DNA of 20,273 nucleotides, taken from a virus. This document shows, piece by piece, positions 5,179 through 18,553 of the stretch. The notes under the pieces are model-generated. The model was not told the origin of the DNA. It made no database searches and was given only the letters and a program-made list of their open reading frames with translations. The stretch spans positions 1 to 20,273 of IMG/VR virus record IMGVR_UViG_3300042453_005986. One strand, written 5' to 3'. The number at the start of each line of letters is the position of its first letter. Positions within the stretch are counted from its first letter, which is position 1. The position numbers and the translations under genes are program-made.

Positions 5179-5445
5179 ATGTCGCAACTCACCCGTTTCA
5201 GTCGCCCCATCGTTCGGCATTTGCCGAGTCTCAATCTCGTTGTCCGTTTCGATGATTCGGGCATTTCCGTCCGCGCGTATCGCTGCCGCAAATGGAAAAG
5301 CGTCACATGGGCGCAGCTCGCGTCTCTGTCTGATGACTCGATGCCAGTAGTCAAAGCGTGCGAGGTCAAAGATGGACTACGAATGTTGAAAGCTCTTGGT
5401 GTGACCATCGCCAGCGAAGGAAGCGAGGTCACTCCCAAGCAATGA
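5179..5445 (+). CDS. Small hypothetical protein between resolvase and primase
   Basis: I do not recognise a family. The 88-residue basic protein contains beta-strand-like segments (LNLVVRFDDSGISVRAYRCRKW), followed by a helical part and the tail KALGVTIASEGSEV. It starts two bases after the RusA stop, with GGAG eleven bases upstream. Its stop overlaps the primase start (ATGA). The tight packing indicates co-expression with replication genes. Function cannot be assigned from the sequence. Confidence 0.6.
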   Translation: MSQLTRFSRPIVRHLPSLNLVVRFDDSGISVRAYRCRKWKSVTWAQLASLSDDSMPVVKACEVKDGLRMLKALGVTIASEGSEVTPKQ

Positions 5446-8015
5446 CAAACGTACCTTCCAATCTTACGCTTGAACATATCCCGCTATCGTTGCGATCGAC
5501 ACCGCAGTGGGTTGCATGGCGATACATCACGCGCGATGGCAAGCAAACCAAAGCGCCGGTGTCGCCCCATGATGGCAGTCTCGCTGATTCAACGTCCGGA
5601 AACACCTGGGGAACATTCGAAGACGCCGTCGAAGCATTTCAGAGTGACAGTTCGCTTGCTGGCGTCGGATTTGTCTTCACGGCCGATGATCCCTACTGTG
5701 GCGTTGATCTCGATAACAGTATTGACGCGGAGGGCAACATTAAACCGTGGGCTGTTGACCTACTGGCCAAGCTGGATAGCTACGCCGAGATCAGTCCTTC
5801 GCGACGCGGACTCAAGGTCTTCATTAAGGCCAATAAGCCAGGTAAACGTTGTCGGAAGGCTTATCACGATGGTGGAATCGAGATCTACGATCGTGATCGC
5901 TTCTTCACAGTAACGGGCGAGCGTCTCCAGGAATACCCCAGCGACATCAATCTCCGCCAACAGTCGCTCGACCTTGTGTATGGATCCGTCTTTGGAGGCG
6001 ATGAACCAGGTTCGGCCGTATCTCCCAATCGTGGACCATCACCTCCAAACGACGATCGTGTCTCGATCGCACTTAGCGATAACGAGATTATCGAGCTCGC
6101 TTGCAAGAAACCTCGCACCGGAGATAAGTTTCGATCGCTGTGGGATGGCAACTGGAATGACCATTACAACTCGGCCAGCGAAGCGGACTCTTCGGTCGTA
6201 TTCACGTTGGCTTATTACACCAAAGATGCCACACAAATTGATCGCATCTTTCGACAATCAAAGCTCATGCGATCCAAGTGGGATCAGTTGCATGGCAGCG
6301 AGTCCTACGGCGCGACTACGATCTCGAAGGCGCTTAATAATGTCACCAAACAATACACTCCGAAGCCTAAGCGAACCACAGCCAGTCGGCCGTTGCCACC
6401 GGAGCCCGCCAACGCTGGATTACCTTCCATCATCATCGATAATCGGCAGCTTGGCGATCTCACATCCCAGGCAATGGCGGCGATCAAACGAGCGAACTCG
6501 CCACCGACCACGTTTGTGCGATCCGGTGGGCTTGTCCGAATCGTCTATGACGAGCAAGACATTCCAAAGATTGAACCATTGGACGTATCTCGGATTCGTT
6601 GCCGGCTGACCGAGGTCGCCAATTTCTTCACGATGCGTAAATCGGATGGTGGCTACATTCCAATCGGCACTAATCCGCCGAAGACTCTTGCCGAGAATAT
6701 CTTGGCTCAAGAAGACTGGGAGCTTCCACCTTTGGTCGGCGTGGCTCGCGCTCCTATCCTACGTGCCGATGGCACGATCTGTACCACGCCTGGTTACGAT
6801 CCCACATCGAGGTTGATGTATTGTCCCGACCCTTCGCTCAATTTGATACCAGTCCCAGAATACCCGTGTGGTGAGGAGGTACGTGCGTGCGTTGACATTC
6901 TGCTTCAGGTAATCGACGAGTTTCCATTCGTCGACAATGCAAGTCGAGCAAATGCACTGGCGATCTTGTTTTCAATCCTCATGCGTCCCGTCATCAAAGG
7001 CCATGTGCCTTTAGCGATTGTCGACGCTCCGATGCAAGGAACCGGCAAATCGTTGTTGATCACGGCGCTGGCAAAGATCGCTGTGGGAAATGTTTCATCC
7101 GAGTCGATTCCAGCTAAGCAAAACGAGGATGAATGGCGGAAGAAGATCACCTCGATCTTGATGACATCGGCGTCATTCGTTTTGCTCGACAACATTCCGG
7201 ACAACACTACGATCGATTCTCCGATGCTGGCTGCAACGTTGACCTCGCGTGAGGTTTCGGATCGGCTCCTCGGTGGCAACCGAATCGTTTCACTTCTCTC
7301 TCGCGTTGTTTGGGCCGCCAGCGGCAACAACCTGCGTGTGACGGGCGACTTGCCCAGGCGTTCTTACAGCATACGGCTTGATGCCAACGCAGAACGGCCT
7401 TGGGAGCGAACCGGATTCCGCATTCGTGATCTTGAGCAATACATCGATGAGAACCGCGGCAACCTACTTTCCGCCGCGCTCACGATCATTAGAGCTTGGT
7501 ACACGCACGGTAAGACTATGGTGCCGATACCTGCGCTCGGAAGCTTTCAAGAGTGGGCAGACACAATCGGTAGCGTCCTAGCGTTCGCCGGTATTCCTGG
7601 ATTCCTCACCAATCTGGAACAGACTCAGGTCGTTCAAGACGAGTCAGCTCAGGAGTGGACAGCATTTTTCGATGCTTGGTGGGAGCGTTTCGGGGACCGA
7701 TTGCAAACGGCAGATGACATCTGTCGCGTTGTCGTTCCACCTAAAGACTCGCCGGTCGAGTACATCGACGATCCGCTTGTGAGGGCTCTACCAGAGCCTC
7801 TGTCCGCGAATCGAGATCGTGGCGAAGGTTCGTTCAAGCGATCGCTGGGACGTCATCTTTCTAAGCTTCGTGGGCGGGTGTTCAACGGCCGCAAACTGAA
7901 AGACGCGGGCGTCAACGCGAAGACCCACGTAAGACTCTGGCAGCTGGTTAACATGAGCGCACCACCAAAGATGCTCTTCGACATGGAGGGTGGCGATGAC
8001 TCTGCAAACGTCTAG
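5442..8015 (+). CDS. NrS-1-type primase-polymerase fused to a D5/SF3-like helicase
   Basis: This 857-residue replication protein has three parts. The first is an N-terminal primase-polymerase domain, with QWVAWRY near residue 22, the metal-binding GVDLD (Asp89, Asp91), and SPSRRGLKVFIK and GGIEIYDRDRFFTVTG further on. Next is a helix-bundle segment (SDNEIIELACKKPRTGDKF...KWDQLHG) like that of the NrS-1 polymerase family. The third is a C-terminal ATPase with Walker A (MQGTGKSLL, about 530-538), Walker B (SFVLLDNIPD, about 578-587) and the sensor VVWAASGNN. It would prime, copy and unwind phage DNA. I place the start at ATG 5442, which overlaps the previous stop; the frame is open further upstream but that sequence overlaps the preceding gene. 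Its last codons run into iteron repeats, as expected for an initiator beside its origin. Confidence 0.87.
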   Translation: MTNVPSNLTLEHIPLSLRSTPQWVAWRYITRDGKQTKAPVSPHDGSLADSTSGNTWGTFEDAVEAFQSDSSLAGVGFVFTADDPYCGVDLDNSIDAEGNIKPWAVDLLAKLDSYAEISPSRRGLKVFIKANKPGKRCRKAYHDGGIEIYDRDRFFTVTGERLQEYPSDINLRQQSLDLVYGSVFGGDEPGSAVSPNRGPSPPNDDRVSIALSDNEIIELACKKPRTGDKFRSLWDGNWNDHYNSASEADSSVVFTLAYYTKDATQIDRIFRQSKLMRSKWDQLHGSESYGATTISKALNNVTKQYTPKPKRTTASRPLPPEPANAGLPSIIIDNRQLGDLTSQAMAAIKRANSPPTTFVRSGGLVRIVYDEQDIPKIEPLDVSRIRCRLTEVANFFTMRKSDGGYIPIGTNPPKTLAENILAQEDWELPPLVGVARAPILRADGTICTTPGYDPTSRLMYCPDPSLNLIPVPEYPCGEEVRACVDILLQVIDEFPFVDNASRANALAILFSILMRPVIKGHVPLAIVDAPMQGTGKSLLITALAKIAVGNVSSESIPAKQNEDEWRKKITSILMTSASFVLLDNIPDNTTIDSPMLAATLTSREVSDRLLGGNRIVSLLSRVVWAASGNNLRVTGDLPRRSYSIRLDANAERPWERTGFRIRDLEQYIDENRGNLLSAALTIIRAWYTHGKTMVPIPALGSFQEWADTIGSVLAFAGIPGFLTNLEQTQVVQDESAQEWTAFFDAWWERFGDRLQTADDICRVVVPPKDSPVEYIDDPLVRALPEPLSANRDRGEGSFKRSLGRHLSKLRGRVFNGRKLKDAGVNAKTHVRLWQLVNMSAPPKMLFDMEGGDDSANV

Positions 8016-8017
8016 CG

Positions 8018-8456
8018 GCGAGGTTAGCGAGGTTAGCGAGGACATTTTTCAGGTCCGCAATCGTCGTGATGCATTGAATTGCGACACTCGGAGCAATGCC
8101 TTGAAAGCGTTTGGCGTTCGCAATTCGTCGGCGCGCAAGTGTGGTTCGAGCACCTTCCGTGGGCATCGTAATCTATTCGAAATTCGTCCTAAGTCCTGTG
8201 CTTATGGATGCTTAGATGCGTTTCGAGCTCATTCAGTCTTAGCGAGGTTAGCGAGGTTAAGCGAGGTTATGGTTTTGGGCTTAACCTCGCCCTGGAAACC
8301 CATGAAAACATTGGTGTTATTAGCAAAGGCGAGGTTAGCGAGGTTATTTCCTCCTATGCTCACATGTACGCACGCGTGCGTGCGCATGCGCGTGATAAAT
8401 AATCACGCGTATAGAAACGGGCTGAAAATAACCTCGCCTAACCTCGCTAACCTCGC
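8018..8456. other. Iteron array, candidate replication origin
   Basis: The nine-base unit GCGAGGTTA occurs seven times forward (8018, 8027, 8242, 8251, 8261, 8329, 8338), with a partial copy at 8036, and four times reversed as TAACCTCGC (8282, 8429, 8439, 8448). Several are directly abutting. Copies at 8261 and 8282 face each other with a 12-base loop, and 8329-8346 is mirrored by 8429-8456. The array starts three bases after the primase-helicase stop. Between the mirrored blocks lie the alternating tract and the AT-looped hairpin described separately. Iterons beside an initiator gene are the classic layout of an origin. I find no convincing gene in 8016-8752. Confidence 0.7.
8361..8410. other. 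Alternating purine-pyrimidine tract and AT-looped hairpin
   Basis: Bases 8361-8394 alternate pyrimidine and purine without a break for 34 positions, including the palindrome CGCACGCGTGCG (8369-8380); such tracts can adopt Z-DNA. Overlapping its end is a perfect hairpin, CGCGTGAT (8389-8396), loop AAATA, ATCACGCG (8402-8409). The structure lies between mirrored iteron blocks, where melting or primase loading would be expected. Confidence 0.65.
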
Positions 8457-8519
8457 CGGCGGGTTTTCGATCGCGCGAACGAAGATATCGGTAGCTTCAA
8501 TCGATCGCACGACGTTGCG

Positions 8520-8582
8520 CACTGACGCGAGATCTTTCGCAAGCTGCCCAACGCGTCGCCTCTCGCACTCATCGCGTCAGTG
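8520..8582. repeat. Perfect 11-bp inverted repeat
   Basis: CACTGACGCGA (8520-8530) is repeated as its complement TCGCGTCAGTG (8572-8582) with 41 bases between. A smaller hairpin, GGGCC-AACAGC-GGCCC (8582-8597), and an imperfect one at 8651-8675 follow. They lie between the iteron region and the methyltransferase gene and may be binding sites for a replication or control protein, or transcript structures. No function is demonstrable. Confidence 0.5.
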
Positions 8583-8752
8583 GGCCAACAGCGGCCCCCA
8601 CAACGCGTCTGCCACTATGGCACTCGATACCAAACATGTTTAGGTACTTCTGGCCCGAGACCACCAATCTTGGGCCGTGGGAACAGCCGCGCGATTAGGC
8701 ACAGTTTGTTTGTTTTGTCCGACCCCCAGCTCCCTAGCCAAAGGATTGCATT

Positions 8753-10147
8753 ATGACCATCACTTCCCTGCAGATTGAAATGTGGACGCTCGATCGAGTT
8801 CGTCCCTATGAAAACAACCCTCGCAACAACGACAAAGCCGTCGACGCGGTTGCAGCTTCGATCAAGGAGTATGGCTTCTCGCAGCCAATCGTTGTTGACA
8901 GCGACAGCGTCATCATCGTCGGCCATACGCGATTGAAGGCCGCGCAGAAGCTTGGACTTGAACGCGTCCCCGTCGTGGTCGCTTCGCACCTGACGCCAGA
9001 GCAAGTGCGTGCGTACCGAATCGCCGACAACAAGACCGCTGAGATCGCGGAATGGAATTACGATCTGTTACCGATCGAATTGTCGGCATTGCAGGAAGCG
9101 AACTACGACCTCGGGCTCCTGGGCTTCAACGCTGAGGAGCTCGCGAAGCTGATGGATACCGGCGTCAACGAAGGCTTGACCGATCCGGACGAGATCCCCG
9201 AGCCGCCAGACGAAGCGGTCACTCAACCTGGTGATCTTTGGATCCTCGGTAACCATCGGTTGCTCTGTGGCAACAGCTCATCGCCGGCAGATCTGGATCG
9301 TTTGTTGGCCGGCGCTACCATCCACCTAGTCAATACAGATCCGCCTTACAACGTGAAGGTTGAGCCGCGATCCAACAACGCAATCGCTGCCGGCCTGTCG
9401 TCGTTCACAAACGATGGAGCAGCTTCGAGGCTCAAAGGTGGCCAAGGCAACGCTGCTTCATTTGGGGTCGATCACGAGACTGGCAAACCGAAGCATGCGG
9501 CGACGCACAAAAAGCTTCGTGCTAAAGATCGTCCGTTAGCGAATGACTTCGTTAGCGACGAGGCTTTTGATCAACTGCTTGACGATTGGTTTGGAAACAT
9601 TGCACGCGTCTTGCTACCAGGTCGCTGCTTCTACATCTGGGGTGGCTACGCCAACTGCGGAAACTATCCACCAGTGCTTAAGAAGCATGGGCTGTACTTT
9701 TCACAGTCGATCATTTGGGACAAGCAGCATCCTGTCTTGACTCGCAAGGATTTTATGGGTGCCCACGAATGGGCGTTCTATGGATGGAAGGAAGGAGCCG
9801 GGCATAAGTACTACGGGCCCAAGAATGCGACGGACCTATGGCAGGTGAAGAAGATCAATCCACAGTCAATGTCACATTTGACTCAGAAGCCTGCGGAGCT
9901 TGCAGTTCGCGCTATGCAGTACTCGTCGGTGCAAGGTGAGAACGTGCTAGACCTCTTCGGCGGTAGTGGCTCGACGATGATCGGTGCCGAGCAATGCGGT
10001 CGCAATTCATTCTCGATGGAACTCGACACACTTTACTGCGATGTCATTGCAGACCGCTTCCAGCGCTTCACGGGTATCCCAGCGGTCTTGGAACGGACCG
10101 GCGAGTCGCCCATTCCAATGCAGCCTCGTGAACAGAACATGCGATAG
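8753..10147 (+). CDS. ParB-like domain/DNA methyltransferase fusion (orphan, beta-type)
   Basis: This 464-residue protein combines an N-terminal ParB/sulfiredoxin-like domain (VRPYENNPRNNDKAVD..., then VVDSDSVIIVGHTRLKAA and RAYRIADNKTAE, residues about 10-100) with an amino-methyltransferase domain. The catalytic motif DPPY is at residues 196-199 and the SAM-binding motif VLDLFGGSGST at about 400. That order, catalytic motif before SAM motif, is the beta arrangement, which fits N6-adenine or N4-cytosine methylation. No restriction enzyme is encoded nearby, so it probably protects phage DNA or marks it for regulation. It is preceded by the 737-base origin-like region and ends ten bases from the stop of the convergent leftward gene. 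The AAAGGA before the ATG is a fair ribosome-binding site. Confidence 0.88.
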   Translation: MTITSLQIEMWTLDRVRPYENNPRNNDKAVDAVAASIKEYGFSQPIVVDSDSVIIVGHTRLKAAQKLGLERVPVVVASHLTPEQVRAYRIADNKTAEIAEWNYDLLPIELSALQEANYDLGLLGFNAEELAKLMDTGVNEGLTDPDEIPEPPDEAVTQPGDLWILGNHRLLCGNSSSPADLDRLLAGATIHLVNTDPPYNVKVEPRSNNAIAAGLSSFTNDGAASRLKGGQGNAASFGVDHETGKPKHAATHKKLRAKDRPLANDFVSDEAFDQLLDDWFGNIARVLLPGRCFYIWGGYANCGNYPPVLKKHGLYFSQSIIWDKQHPVLTRKDFMGAHEWAFYGWKEGAGHKYYGPKNATDLWQVKKINPQSMSHLTQKPAELAVRAMQYSSVQGENVLDLFGGSGSTMIGAEQCGRNSFSMELDTLYCDVIADRFQRFTGIPAVLERTGESPIPMQPREQNMR

Positions 10148-11444: not shown

Positions 11445-12014
11445 CTAGCCTCGAACGGTGAAGCGTCCGCGTTCGGTCTTCACAAACTTGCTATCGTCGC
11501 CCTTGGCCAGGTCGCGGAGGATTGCGCTGTACAAGGTCGCGTGAGGCGTCTTGCCACCGGGACTGGTCCAGTAACCTTTGGCTTCCATCGCGGTGATCAG
11601 CTCTTGAGCATTCATCGGTTCGCTCGATTCGCCAAGAACTTTCAAGGCAGCGGCGACGCAGCTCAATCGCTTCTCGCCGGCGTCGCCCGTTTCAGTCGTT
11701 ACTGCCTTAGCTTTGCGTGGTTTCTTGAGGACCGCAACCGCCGTGGAAGAATCGCCTCCGATCGTTTCGACCGTTGCCGGTTCGTTCTCAACCACCGTTA
11801 CGTTGCCTTCGGTGGTGACCTTCGCACGTCCGCGCTTTGCACCCACTTCGCCCTGAAGGCGTTGAGCGCTCTTGATGAGAATCTTCTTGCCGGTTGCGAG
11901 GTTGGTTGCATCCCAGCCACCGCGAGGTTTCTCTGCATCGATTTGAATCTCGCATCGGTTGCCCGAAACGTTCGCGTAGTATTTGCCACCAATCTTTACT
12001 TCTGCCTTCTTCAT
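11445..12014 (-). CDS. HARE-HTH (winged-helix) domain protein
   Basis: The 189-residue protein has a C-terminal HARE-HTH winged-helix domain at about residues 117-188. Key segments are LSCVAAALKVLGES, MNAQELITAMEAKGYW, SPGGKTPHATLYSAI and FVKTERGRFTVRG. The N-terminal 55 residues look like a small beta domain (KIGGKYYANVSGNRCEI...), joined by a basic Ala/Lys/Thr-rich linker. HARE-HTH domains are found in RNA polymerase delta subunits and chromatin-linked proteins and are thought to bind DNA, perhaps modified DNA. A methyltransferase is encoded a short distance away, but a link is speculation. I chose the ATG at 12014 because GGAG lies ten bases ahead; an in-frame ATG at 12053 has no such site. 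Confidence 0.85.
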   Translation of the reverse strand: MKKAEVKIGGKYYANVSGNRCEIQIDAEKPRGGWDATNLATGKKILIKSAQRLQGEVGAKRGRAKVTTEGNVTVVENEPATVETIGGDSSTAVAVLKKPRKAKAVTTETGDAGEKRLSCVAAALKVLGESSEPMNAQELITAMEAKGYWTSPGGKTPHATLYSAILRDLAKGDDSKFVKTERGRFTVRG

Positions 12015-12059
12015 CTTCGTTTCTCCAAATCTGTGTTCGTGGTTGGCTGCCATCGTCAG

Positions 12060-12081
12060 GCCGATCGAACCACCGATCGGC
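12060..12081 (-). other. Perfect hairpin after the 12108 gene
   Basis: GCCGATC and GATCGGC form a seven-pair stem with an eight-base loop between the stop of the gene at 12108-12422 and the next start at 12014. No T run follows on the leftward strand, so it is more likely a transcript-processing or stabilising hairpin than a standard intrinsic terminator. Confidence 0.45.
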
Positions 12082-12107
12082 TACGCGCGTCCGTGTTGCG
12101 TTTCGGC

Positions 12108-12422
12108 TTATTGACCAAAGACCAAGTCCGACAATCCCTCGCAGAGAAAGTCGACTATCACCTGCACCTCTGTATTGACCGCCGGCACATCCAACCCGCG
12201 ATCAAAGTTGAACATCACTTTGCGATCGGCCAGGCGTTGAATCCAAAGCTTCGATATTTTGCTTTGGTTCAATTCGAAGGATTCGTGCTCGGCATGTTCG
12301 GCGAACACCAAGGCGTCGAAGCGGTAATCGTCGTTGATCTTGCCTTGCACCCAAGATCCGCCAGCGCCGCGGTTGCGATTACTGATCTTGGTGATCGTCA
12401 GGTCGAGGTCGTGTTGAGTCAT
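12108..12422 (-). CDS. Hypothetical protein, beta-rich, with FNFDRGLD motif
   Basis: I do not recognise this 104-residue protein with confidence. It has beta-strand segments (GSWVQGKINDDYRFDALVF), a short helix with SKISKLWIQRL, and MFNFDRGLDVPAV followed by a hydrophobic strand. Those features recall small phage proteins of unknown function. The ATG at 12422 lies 44 bases after the end of leader repeat 1. The GGAG ribosome-binding site is about ten bases upstream. An in-frame ATG within the repeat would add 17 residues, but the repeat is better read as an untranslated leader. Confidence 0.65.
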   Translation of the reverse strand: MTQHDLDLTITKISNRNRGAGGSWVQGKINDDYRFDALVFAEHAEHESFELNQSKISKLWIQRLADRKVMFNFDRGLDVPAVNTEVQVIVDFLCEGLSDLVFGQ

Positions 12423-12460
12423 CTGCTGGTCTCCGTTGCTTGGTTGGTGAATCGTTTTCG

Positions 12461-16296: not shown

Positions 16297-18553
16297 TCCA
16301 AGGAAACTAAAACCAAGCGAGCTATGTCGTCTACTCAATTCAACGCCACTGGGCGAGGTGATCAGCGAACGGCAACTCTATCGGCATCGTCAACGCGCCG
16401 GCGCACGCATCGGCGACAACAAGACTGTTGACTTGCTTCGCTATTGCGCATGGATGCATGTCGTACGACATACGCCTCGCACGACAAACGGTGTAGATCC
16501 ATACGATGCTATGAAGGAAAGAGCGCGTGCTCGTAACGCAGCGCTTGCACTTGCTGGTCGCGACATCGGTGAACTACCAGAGGTCGATAACGTAGATCGC
16601 AAGGATCGTGCATCGCGTGACTTCAGGTACTTTTGTGAGACATACTTTCCGCTCACGTTTCATCTCGCATGGTCGCCGGATCATATCAAGGTCATCAACA
16701 AGATCGAGCAAGCGGTTGTGCACGGAGGTTTGTTCGCACTCGCGATGGCTCGCGGTAGCGGCAAGAGCTCGATTGCGGAAGTCGCATGTATTTGGGCAGT
16801 GCTGTATGGGCATCGCAACTTTGTTTGTTTGATCGGCAGCGACGAAGGTCATGCATGTGATATGCTCGATTCGATCAAAATCGAACTTGATAGCAACGAG
16901 TTGCTCTTAGCAGACTTCCCCGAGGTCTGCTTCCCGATTCAAGCCCTCGATGGAATCTCGAATCGCGCAAATGGCCAGCTCTATAAAGGCAAACGCACGC
17001 AGATCGGATGGACCGCCAAAGAAGTCGTCCTACCAACGATCGAAGGGAGCAGCGCCAGCGGAGCGATTATCAAGGTCGCCGGCCTAACCGGCCGCATCCG
17101 AGGTATGAAGTTCAAACGTCCCGATGGCAGAACAGTACGACCAAGTCTTGTGGTACTCGATGACCCGCAAACGGATGAGAGTGCTCGTTCGCTCTCGCAA
17201 TGTGCGAATCGCGAAAGTATCCTCGCCGGCGCTGTCCTTGGCTTAGCTGGTCCTGGCAAGAAGATCTCTGGCATTATGCCCTGCACGGTTATTCGTCCAG
17301 GTGATATGGCGGACAATATCCTCGATAGGAATCGCCATCCAGAATGGAATGGCGAACGAACCAAGATGGTCTATGCGTTCCCAAAGAATGACTTGTTATG
17401 GGAACGTTACGCCGAGATCCGCGCCGAAGGGATGCGTGGCGGTGATGGCGGTGAAGCGGCGACCGAGTTTTATCGGCAGAACCAAGCCGCAATGGACGAA
17501 GGTGCGATTATCGCTTGGCAAGAGCGATTCAACTACGACGAACTTTCCGCGATCCAGCACGCGATGAATCTCAAACTGCAAGACGAGGCAGCGTTCTTCG
17601 CCGAGTACCAGAACCAACCATTGCCTGCAGAAACGGTGGTTGACGGGATGCTCAAGCCAGAAGAAGTGTCGACGAAGATCAACCGCATGGATCGTGGCTT
17701 GGTTTCGATTGGCGCGAATCATCTTACCGCCTTCATCGACGTCCAGCAGAAGCTGCTTTTCTATGTGGTCGCCGCATGGGAGGACGACTTCACGGGATAT
17801 GTGATTGACTACGGTTGTTACCCCGACCAGCAGCGTCCGTATTTCACACTACGCGAGGCACGGCAAACGCTGAGCTCCGAAGCGACGGGAACCGGACTCG
17901 AGGGATCGATCTATGCCGGCCTCGACTCACTAACTTCAAAACTACTCGATCGCGAATGGCAGCGAGACGACGGCGCTGCGATGCGTATCGGTCGCTGTTT
18001 GATCGACGCCAACTGGGGCCAATCAACGGATGTGGTCTATCAGTTCTGCCGGCAGTCCAAGCACGCCGCTGTGATCACTCCCAGCCACGGTCGGTTCGTC
18101 GGCGCTTCGAGCTTGCCGTTTAGCGAGTATCGTCGCCGGCCAGGTGATCGAGTAGGACTCAACTGGCGTATCCCGAACGTACATGGCAAACGAGCCATAC
18201 GACACGTGGTCTACGATACCAACTGGTGGAAGTCGTTTATCAACGCTCGGCTTCGTGTTTCGATGGGCGATCGCGGTTGCCTCTCGCTCTTTGGTACGAA
18301 CGCCGAAACGCATCGTATGTTCGCCGAGCATTTGACCTCAGAGTACTTCATCAAGACCGAGGCCCGCGGTCGGAACGTTGATGAATGGAAGCAGCGACCG
18401 GAGCAGCCGGACAACCACTGGTTCGACTGCCTTGTGGGTTCCGCAGTTGCGGCATCGATGCAAGGAGCAATTTTATTTGGAATTGATTCAACACGCGAAA
18501 TAGCCCCAAAACGCTTGAGTTTTAAGGACATCCAGCAGAACCGACGCAAATAG
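16286..18553 (+). CDS. Phage terminase large subunit
   Basis: The 755-residue protein is the ATP-driven DNA packaging motor with nuclease. The ATPase domain has Walker A MARGSGKSS (residues 154-162) and Walker B LVVLDDPQTDE (288-298). The C-terminal RNase-H-like nuclease domain shows FIDVQQ with Asp485, a strand VVAAWEDDFTGYVIDYG, and LIDANWGQS with Asp574. The N-terminal 70 residues contain a helix-turn-helix-like segment not common in the ATPase core. I chose GTG at 16286, with AAGGAG seven bases upstream, over the longer frame from 16229, which overlaps the previous gene heavily. Downstream come a small gene and the portal, the usual packaging order. Confidence 0.88.
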   Translation: MASDPRKLKPSELCRLLNSTPLGEVISERQLYRHRQRAGARIGDNKTVDLLRYCAWMHVVRHTPRTTNGVDPYDAMKERARARNAALALAGRDIGELPEVDNVDRKDRASRDFRYFCETYFPLTFHLAWSPDHIKVINKIEQAVVHGGLFALAMARGSGKSSIAEVACIWAVLYGHRNFVCLIGSDEGHACDMLDSIKIELDSNELLLADFPEVCFPIQALDGISNRANGQLYKGKRTQIGWTAKEVVLPTIEGSSASGAIIKVAGLTGRIRGMKFKRPDGRTVRPSLVVLDDPQTDESARSLSQCANRESILAGAVLGLAGPGKKISGIMPCTVIRPGDMADNILDRNRHPEWNGERTKMVYAFPKNDLLWERYAEIRAEGMRGGDGGEAATEFYRQNQAAMDEGAIIAWQERFNYDELSAIQHAMNLKLQDEAAFFAEYQNQPLPAETVVDGMLKPEEVSTKINRMDRGLVSIGANHLTAFIDVQQKLLFYVVAAWEDDFTGYVIDYGCYPDQQRPYFTLREARQTLSSEATGTGLEGSIYAGLDSLTSKLLDREWQRDDGAAMRIGRCLIDANWGQSTDVVYQFCRQSKHAAVITPSHGRFVGASSLPFSEYRRRPGDRVGLNWRIPNVHGKRAIRHVVYDTNWWKSFINARLRVSMGDRGCLSLFGTNAETHRMFAEHLTSEYFIKTEARGRNVDEWKQRPEQPDNHWFDCLVGSAVAASMQGAILFGIDSTREIAPKRLSFKDIQQNRRK

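Follow-up and report, generated by a model that had tools for sequence, protein, structure and literature searches.

What is the function of the short repeats that lie directly behind a viral primase-helicase gene, and to which part of the encoded protein do they belong? These questions are raised by positions 8018–8456 of the DNA analysed here (the window), which is an entire, linear IMG/VR record of 20,273 bp and is probably a fragment. A preliminary description had proposed that the region is an iteron origin in cis and that its repeats are the template-recognition sequence of the adjoining NrS-1-type primase-polymerase (PrimPol). The NrS-1 polymerase is a model self-priming phage replicase, and to our knowledge the replication origin of NrS-1 has so far only been guessed at. 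A conserved origin grammar behind the replicase gene, NrS-1 included, would permit origin opening, helicase self-loading and priming to be reconstituted from one protein and about 450 bp of DNA.

The iteron array and its central spacer

All 11 exact copies of the word GCGAGGTTA in the window (seven forward, four reverse) are found at 8018–8456, with none elsewhere, which confirms the number, the two orientations and the placement directly after the primase-helicase gene given previously. The stop codon of that gene ends at 8015, and the first iteron begins 3 nt after it. In 100 dinucleotide shuffles of the window, the expectation for this word was 0.11 copies and the maximum was 1. It forms the densest 9-mer cluster of the window, 11 copies in 439 bp, compared with at most two per 450 bp for other 9-mers and a maximum of three in shuffled sequence. 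The mirrored structures of the preliminary description were recovered as two pairs of inverted arms. The elements of the region are as follows.

8018, 8027, 8242, 8251, 8261, 8329 and 8338, plus strand: forward copies of the iteron word GCGAGGTTA, exact matches
8282, 8429, 8439 and 8448, minus strand: reverse copies of the same word, exact matches
8018..8035, plus strand: distal iteron pair, two forward tandem copies, exact matches
8242..8290: left arm, three forward copies (8242, 8251, 8261) and one reverse copy (8282–8290), exact matches
8329..8346, plus strand: central forward iteron pair, starting 47 bp past the start of the reverse copy
8347..8428: central spacer of 82 bp, proposed unwinding element; length kept and sequence replaced among relatives
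8361..8394: perfectly alternating purine–pyrimidine tract of 34 nt, Z-DNA-prone
8389..8409: hairpin-forming palindrome CGCGTGAT-AAATA-ATCACGCG, read from the sequence and paired in the RNA fold
8429..8456, minus strand: right iteron set, three reverse copies (8429, 8439, 8448), exact matches
8242–8270/8428–8456: inverted arms, 29 nt, 97%
8016–8036/8438–8458: inverted arms, 21 nt, 100%

The RRR-L layout of the left arm recurs in other clades. An ORF at 7990–8643 runs across the array and is most reasonably dismissed as spurious; annotated ORFs do get drawn over such arrays, as with NRS1_29 in NrS-1, under which the array of that phage lies.

The alternating tract at 8361..8394 is the longest of its kind both in the window and in a 61.5-kb relative, and in three contigs of 61–64 kb the contig-wide longest alternating run sits at the position of the spacer. 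The spacer is not AT-rich, with 50% AT in the window versus 81% in the vir525 relative L100. Its placement and persistence suggest that the alternating tract may substitute for an AT-rich unwinding element. The DnaA box TTWTNCACA, a criterion of classical iteron plasmid origins, is absent from the window, and no RepA-type initiator gene was present among the ten larger window proteins that were scanned. A tRNA search found none. GC skew, a check proposed earlier in its cumulative form, was followed in the window and in five long contigs and revealed no consistent extremum at the position of the array.

The primase-helicase gene and its neighbours

The gene upstream of the array encodes a protein of 857 residues whose match to PF22763, the NrS-1 HBD, identifies it as an NrS-1-type PrimPol. 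Foldseek comparison of its AF2 model (pLDDT 84) gave NrS-1 N300 (6jon) as the top match, at 4.6e-21, followed by the D5-type hexameric helicases MPXV E5, vaccinia D5 and AsfvPrimPol and by the SaPI5 primase-helicase 7ola. The C-terminal region, in which helices are followed by a beta hairpin in the secondary structure, is predicted from this pattern, rather than from a domain match, to be winged-helix-like.

5442..8015, plus strand: primase-polymerase/helicase, 857 aa (PF22763, 3.5e-23; AF2 model; Foldseek)
About residues 1–324: NrS-1-type PrimPol and HBD
About residues 325–715: D5-like helicase
About residues 725–837 (window 7614–7952): predicted C-terminal winged-helix-like domain
8753..10147, plus strand: ParB-N and N6/N4 DNA methyltransferase (PF01555, PF02195)

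The order of genes leading up to the array is sigma-like factor, PD-(D/E)XK exonuclease, Sak4-like AAA protein, DUF669 SSB, RusA, a small ORF and the PrimPol-helicase; past it come the ParB-N/methyltransferase gene, which also follows the array in close relatives, many small minus-strand genes, the large terminase and the portal. A type II hammerhead ribozyme scoring above the Rfam gathering score is located at 12041–12108 on the minus strand, just upstream of the minus-strand gene 11445–12053. An imperfect repeat of 60–80 nt with the core ACACACATGAGCCATGCGGTT...CCTCAAGCCG occurs on the 5' side of many of the small minus-strand genes between 12449 and 15974, with copies near 12449, 12784, 13199, 13600, 14135, 14708 and 15868, and is perhaps a common promoter or leader element.

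Conservation of the array and its link to the helicase half

The junction of gene and array is present in 13 loci, the window included, and in all 13 an iteron array lies directly 3' of the gene; these loci, on IMG/VR contigs and Planctomycetota MAG contigs, some named Pirellula, are partly related or duplicated and so are not independent events. In nearly all of them the core consists of a reverse copy, followed after 46–47 bp by two forward copies with a spacing of 9 bp and, some 91 bp further on, by reverse copies; L025 deviates on the right side. This spacing persists despite replacement of the spacer sequence, which is CG/TG-alternating in the window, L007 and L013 and made of ATGTACAT words in L024, L018 and L012; purine–pyrimidine alternation is significant in most close-relative spacers. 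Eleven of the 12 GCGAGGTTA copies on the 61.5-kb contig are inside the array. Among more remote loci (54–64% identity), L036 and L038 retain the GCGAGGTTA word in fewer copies, and in L037 and L041 the word is GCGGGGTT(A/T), altered in concert across the copies. Co-varying repeats at the corresponding position in related phages, which the preliminary description had called for, do therefore exist.

A repeat dispersed through the host genome was considered and rejected: when the genome collection was scanned for exact 18-mers, six of the matches were Planctomycetota contigs bearing the genes of this phage, and the other six were in unrelated taxa with only two or three tandem copies.

Several close relatives carry further features around the array. 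Immediately 3' of the array in L025 (8122–8487) is a free-standing ORF homologous to the C-terminal domain of the primase-helicase (HMM 4.7e-17); its product is perhaps an iteron-binding regulator. In L012 and L014, ORFs between the array and the methyltransferase gene contain an N-terminal stretch resembling that of the terminase (residues 27–84, 62%), joined to an HNH-like domain, and are perhaps homing-type inserts. Fragments of Sak4 (1–171), primase (389–581) and terminase (407–774) are fused directly in the IMG/VR contigs L030 and L031, a structure resembling either an internal-deletion genome or an assembly chimera common to both.

Searches with the whole primase revealed contigs that are alike over about residues 1–346 only; these have a different helicase (PF08706/PF19263) and no GCGAGGTTA. 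In L043 the N-terminal half is 94% identical, homology in the C-terminal half is undetectable and the array is absent from a contig that stops about 370 bp past the gene, while L044, with an N-terminal half 90% identical and no C-terminal half, lacks the array despite more than 1 kb of downstream DNA. The opposite combination is seen in L027, where halves that are 68% (N-terminal) and 94% (C-terminal) identical are accompanied by an 11-copy array of identical spacing.

Searches with the C-terminal half returned helicases of 24–39% identity fused to other primases, namely PF09250 PrimPols (L088, L112), CHC2/Toprim DnaG-type primases (L089, L096) and Toprim_3 (L103). Behind many of those that are 33–39% identical, the array layout is present with other words: GCGGGGACT in 12 copies with near-perfect dyad symmetry (e.g. 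RRR L / RR / LL / R LLL in L091), CGCAACCT in 12 copies in the same layout (L112), GTCGGTTT in 11, GCAGACCT in nine and GCGGGGATA in six, as determined from exact 8-mer counts, which degenerate arrays escape. Across seven words, the core spacings are 37 or 46–51 (L-R), 8–10 (R-R) and 76–101 (R-L), values that at the distant loci depend partly on the choice of matched copies. In the Methanosarcinales virus vir525, nine copies lie behind the phrog_10537 helicase, and no other part of the viral genome has a cluster of this kind. No array was seen in named large phages of Caulobacter, Brevundimonas and Ruegeria whose helicases are distant (under 30–32%).

Because of the swap contigs, and because the same grammar stands behind helicases with other primases, we conclude that the repeats follow the helicase/winged-helix half of the protein and not the PrimPol. 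The data suggest that origin and helicase half form a module moving between phages with unrelated primases, and such a module should aid origin finding in unannotated phage genomes. Since array and helicase half are adjacent, linkage by recombination could by itself produce such a swap pattern among close relatives; the concerted changes of the word and the recurrence of one grammar in unrelated words nevertheless argue for function beyond linkage.

Two other arrangements were encountered. Four loci with an NrS-1-type primase and a D5_N helicase (‘type B’; L044, L048, L052, L064) have no array by the 8-mer scan. Instead, an alternating purine–pyrimidine tract of 18–22 nt, enclosed by a compact dyad, follows the primase stop at a distance of about 70–150 nt; this arrangement may be a second origin design. 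At L071:7045–7334, six copies of GGCGACAA are clustered in about 260 bp, some 700–950 bp past a gene with an NrS-1-like N-terminal half and a DUF927 helicase.

Known origins, the replication-origin reading and its alternatives

In NrS-1 itself (AB746912.1), AGTGTAAC occurs 11 times in the genome, always within about 17062–17377, directly behind the polymerase gene. The core, with AT-rich DNA at its centre, reads L-48-R-9-R-95-L, where the final L is a degenerate copy, AAAGTGTGGT, picked by eye. The 48/9/95 spacing compares with 47/9/91 in the window. NrS-1 differs in its word, AAAGTGTAACC, in its AT-rich core, in the priming site inside the array and in a C-terminal half without tblastn homology. 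The published priming site of the NrS-1 polymerase is TTTGGTTA (PMC8718748). AB746912.1 has a single TTTGGTTA, on the minus strand at 17198, where two iterons of the array join; PMC7102993 states two copies for NrS-1. In Lactobacillus phage A2 (AJ251789.2), the GenBank rep_origin 32208–32717 is directly 3' of an NrS-1-like primase and contains opposed TACGGGAGGAT-like copies around a core; its word, its fewer copies, its AT-rich core and a helicase half without tblastn homology set it apart from the window. Smaller arrays of three to five copies occupy the corresponding place in Lactobacillus phages EV3 and CR28 and in a Listeria phage, and four further phages with NrS-1-like PrimPols have no array. 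In the literature searched, we found no description of the NrS-1 array or of a grammar common to unrelated primases.

The arrangement also resembles PICI/SaPI origins, which lie immediately 3' of the initiator gene with two iteron sets flanking an AT-rich melting region (PMC6092414). As in SaPIbov1, SaPI5 and EcCICFT073, the array is immediately 3' of a putative initiator gene and opposed iteron sets surround a putative melting region, here the fixed 82-bp spacer; the D5-like SaPI5 primase-helicase (7ola) is, in addition, a fold relative of the window protein. Those elements, however, are satellites packaged by a helper phage, and their melting region is AT-rich. With a large terminase and a portal of its own in the window, and with a tract that is alternating purine–pyrimidine rather than AT-rich, the phage is not a PICI. 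SaPI Rep and Cch2 bind iterons just downstream of their own genes through their C-terminal domains, and in the SCCmec Cch2 origin priming maps to the iterons (PMC7581432). Cch2, likewise a D5-like helicase, differs in having three AAGTG iterons and a primase that is a separate polymerase complex (CCPol-MP). The locus is thus of an already known kind, that of PICI/SaPI- and A2-type 3' iteron origins; new here are the host group, the fixed grammar and the Z-DNA-prone central tract.

Overall, we conclude that 8018–8456 is very probably the replication origin of the phage, this being the best explanation of the array, its exclusive position, its conserved grammar, its linkage to the helicase half, the predicted domains and the annotated origin of A2. 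The origin part of the preliminary description is therefore supported, and it is in keeping with it that the NrS-1 array encloses the published priming site. In the mechanism we envisage, the opposed iteron sets flank a strain-sensitive 82-bp tract and would be bound by the C-terminal winged-helix domain, as SaPI Rep and Cch2 suggest by analogy and with indirect support from the domain-swap linkage. The inverted iteron pairs would then receive D5-like helicase rings in opposed complexes, and these would open the tract between the sets, which is Z-DNA-prone in the window and AT-rich in NrS-1, A2 and vir525. Once its strands are exposed, the attached NrS-1-type PrimPol would start synthesis on them. 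The choice of binding domain, the melting, the loading of the helicase, the priming and the direction of replication are all inferred.

That the GCGAGGTTA repeats are themselves priming sites of the NrS-1-type PrimPol/HBD, presented on both strands, might be read from the GGTTA common to GCGAGGTTA and the NrS-1 site TTTGGTTA (PMC8718748), which falls within the NrS-1 array. GGTTA is, however, all that the two words share, and TTTGGTTA does not occur in the window. The tracking of the repeats with the helicase half is evidence against a PrimPol template signal: PrimPol–HBD segments 90–94% identical exist without the array, and the grammar also follows helicases joined to DnaG/Toprim primases. 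We consider this explanation very unlikely. The two array-less loci, L043 and L044, come close to the related primase lacking repeats that had been named as counter-evidence, and they weaken the recognition idea while leaving the origin reading unharmed.

An operator or partition array, through which a repressor or the downstream ParB-N/methyltransferase would govern transcription or segregation, is favoured by the presence of the ParB-N/methyltransferase gene as the next one in close relatives, and stand-alone DNA-binding domains such as that in L025 could be autoregulators. The array nevertheless goes with the helicase half regardless of the neighbouring primase, the next gene is a different one in NrS-1 and A2, the location matches the annotated origin of A2, and a sigma-70-type scan of 7900–8800 found no promoter or terminator; we rate this explanation very unlikely as well and, if anything, more so. 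Least credible, and in our judgement extremely improbable, is a structured RNA as the functional element, for instance in replication priming or regulation. The fold of 8230–8470 does have a z of -9.6, but long inverted arms give such folds regardless, and Rfam at the gathering threshold gave no match within the array. Tandem copies without partners, arms gained or lost, and words and spacings that are kept fit protein binding better.

Within the origin reading, each iteron could have two readers, the winged helix binding the 5' GCGAGG/GCGGGG duplex and the melted 3' GGTTA acting as the priming word of the PrimPol, so that binding and primer placement would be combined in one repeat; we regard this as a doubtful proposal. 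GGTTA is mostly retained with the NrS-1-type primase half, as in GCGAGGTTA, GCGGGGTTA and the TTTGGTTA of NrS-1, and homologous helicases with other primases have the words GCGGGGACT or GCGGGGATA instead.
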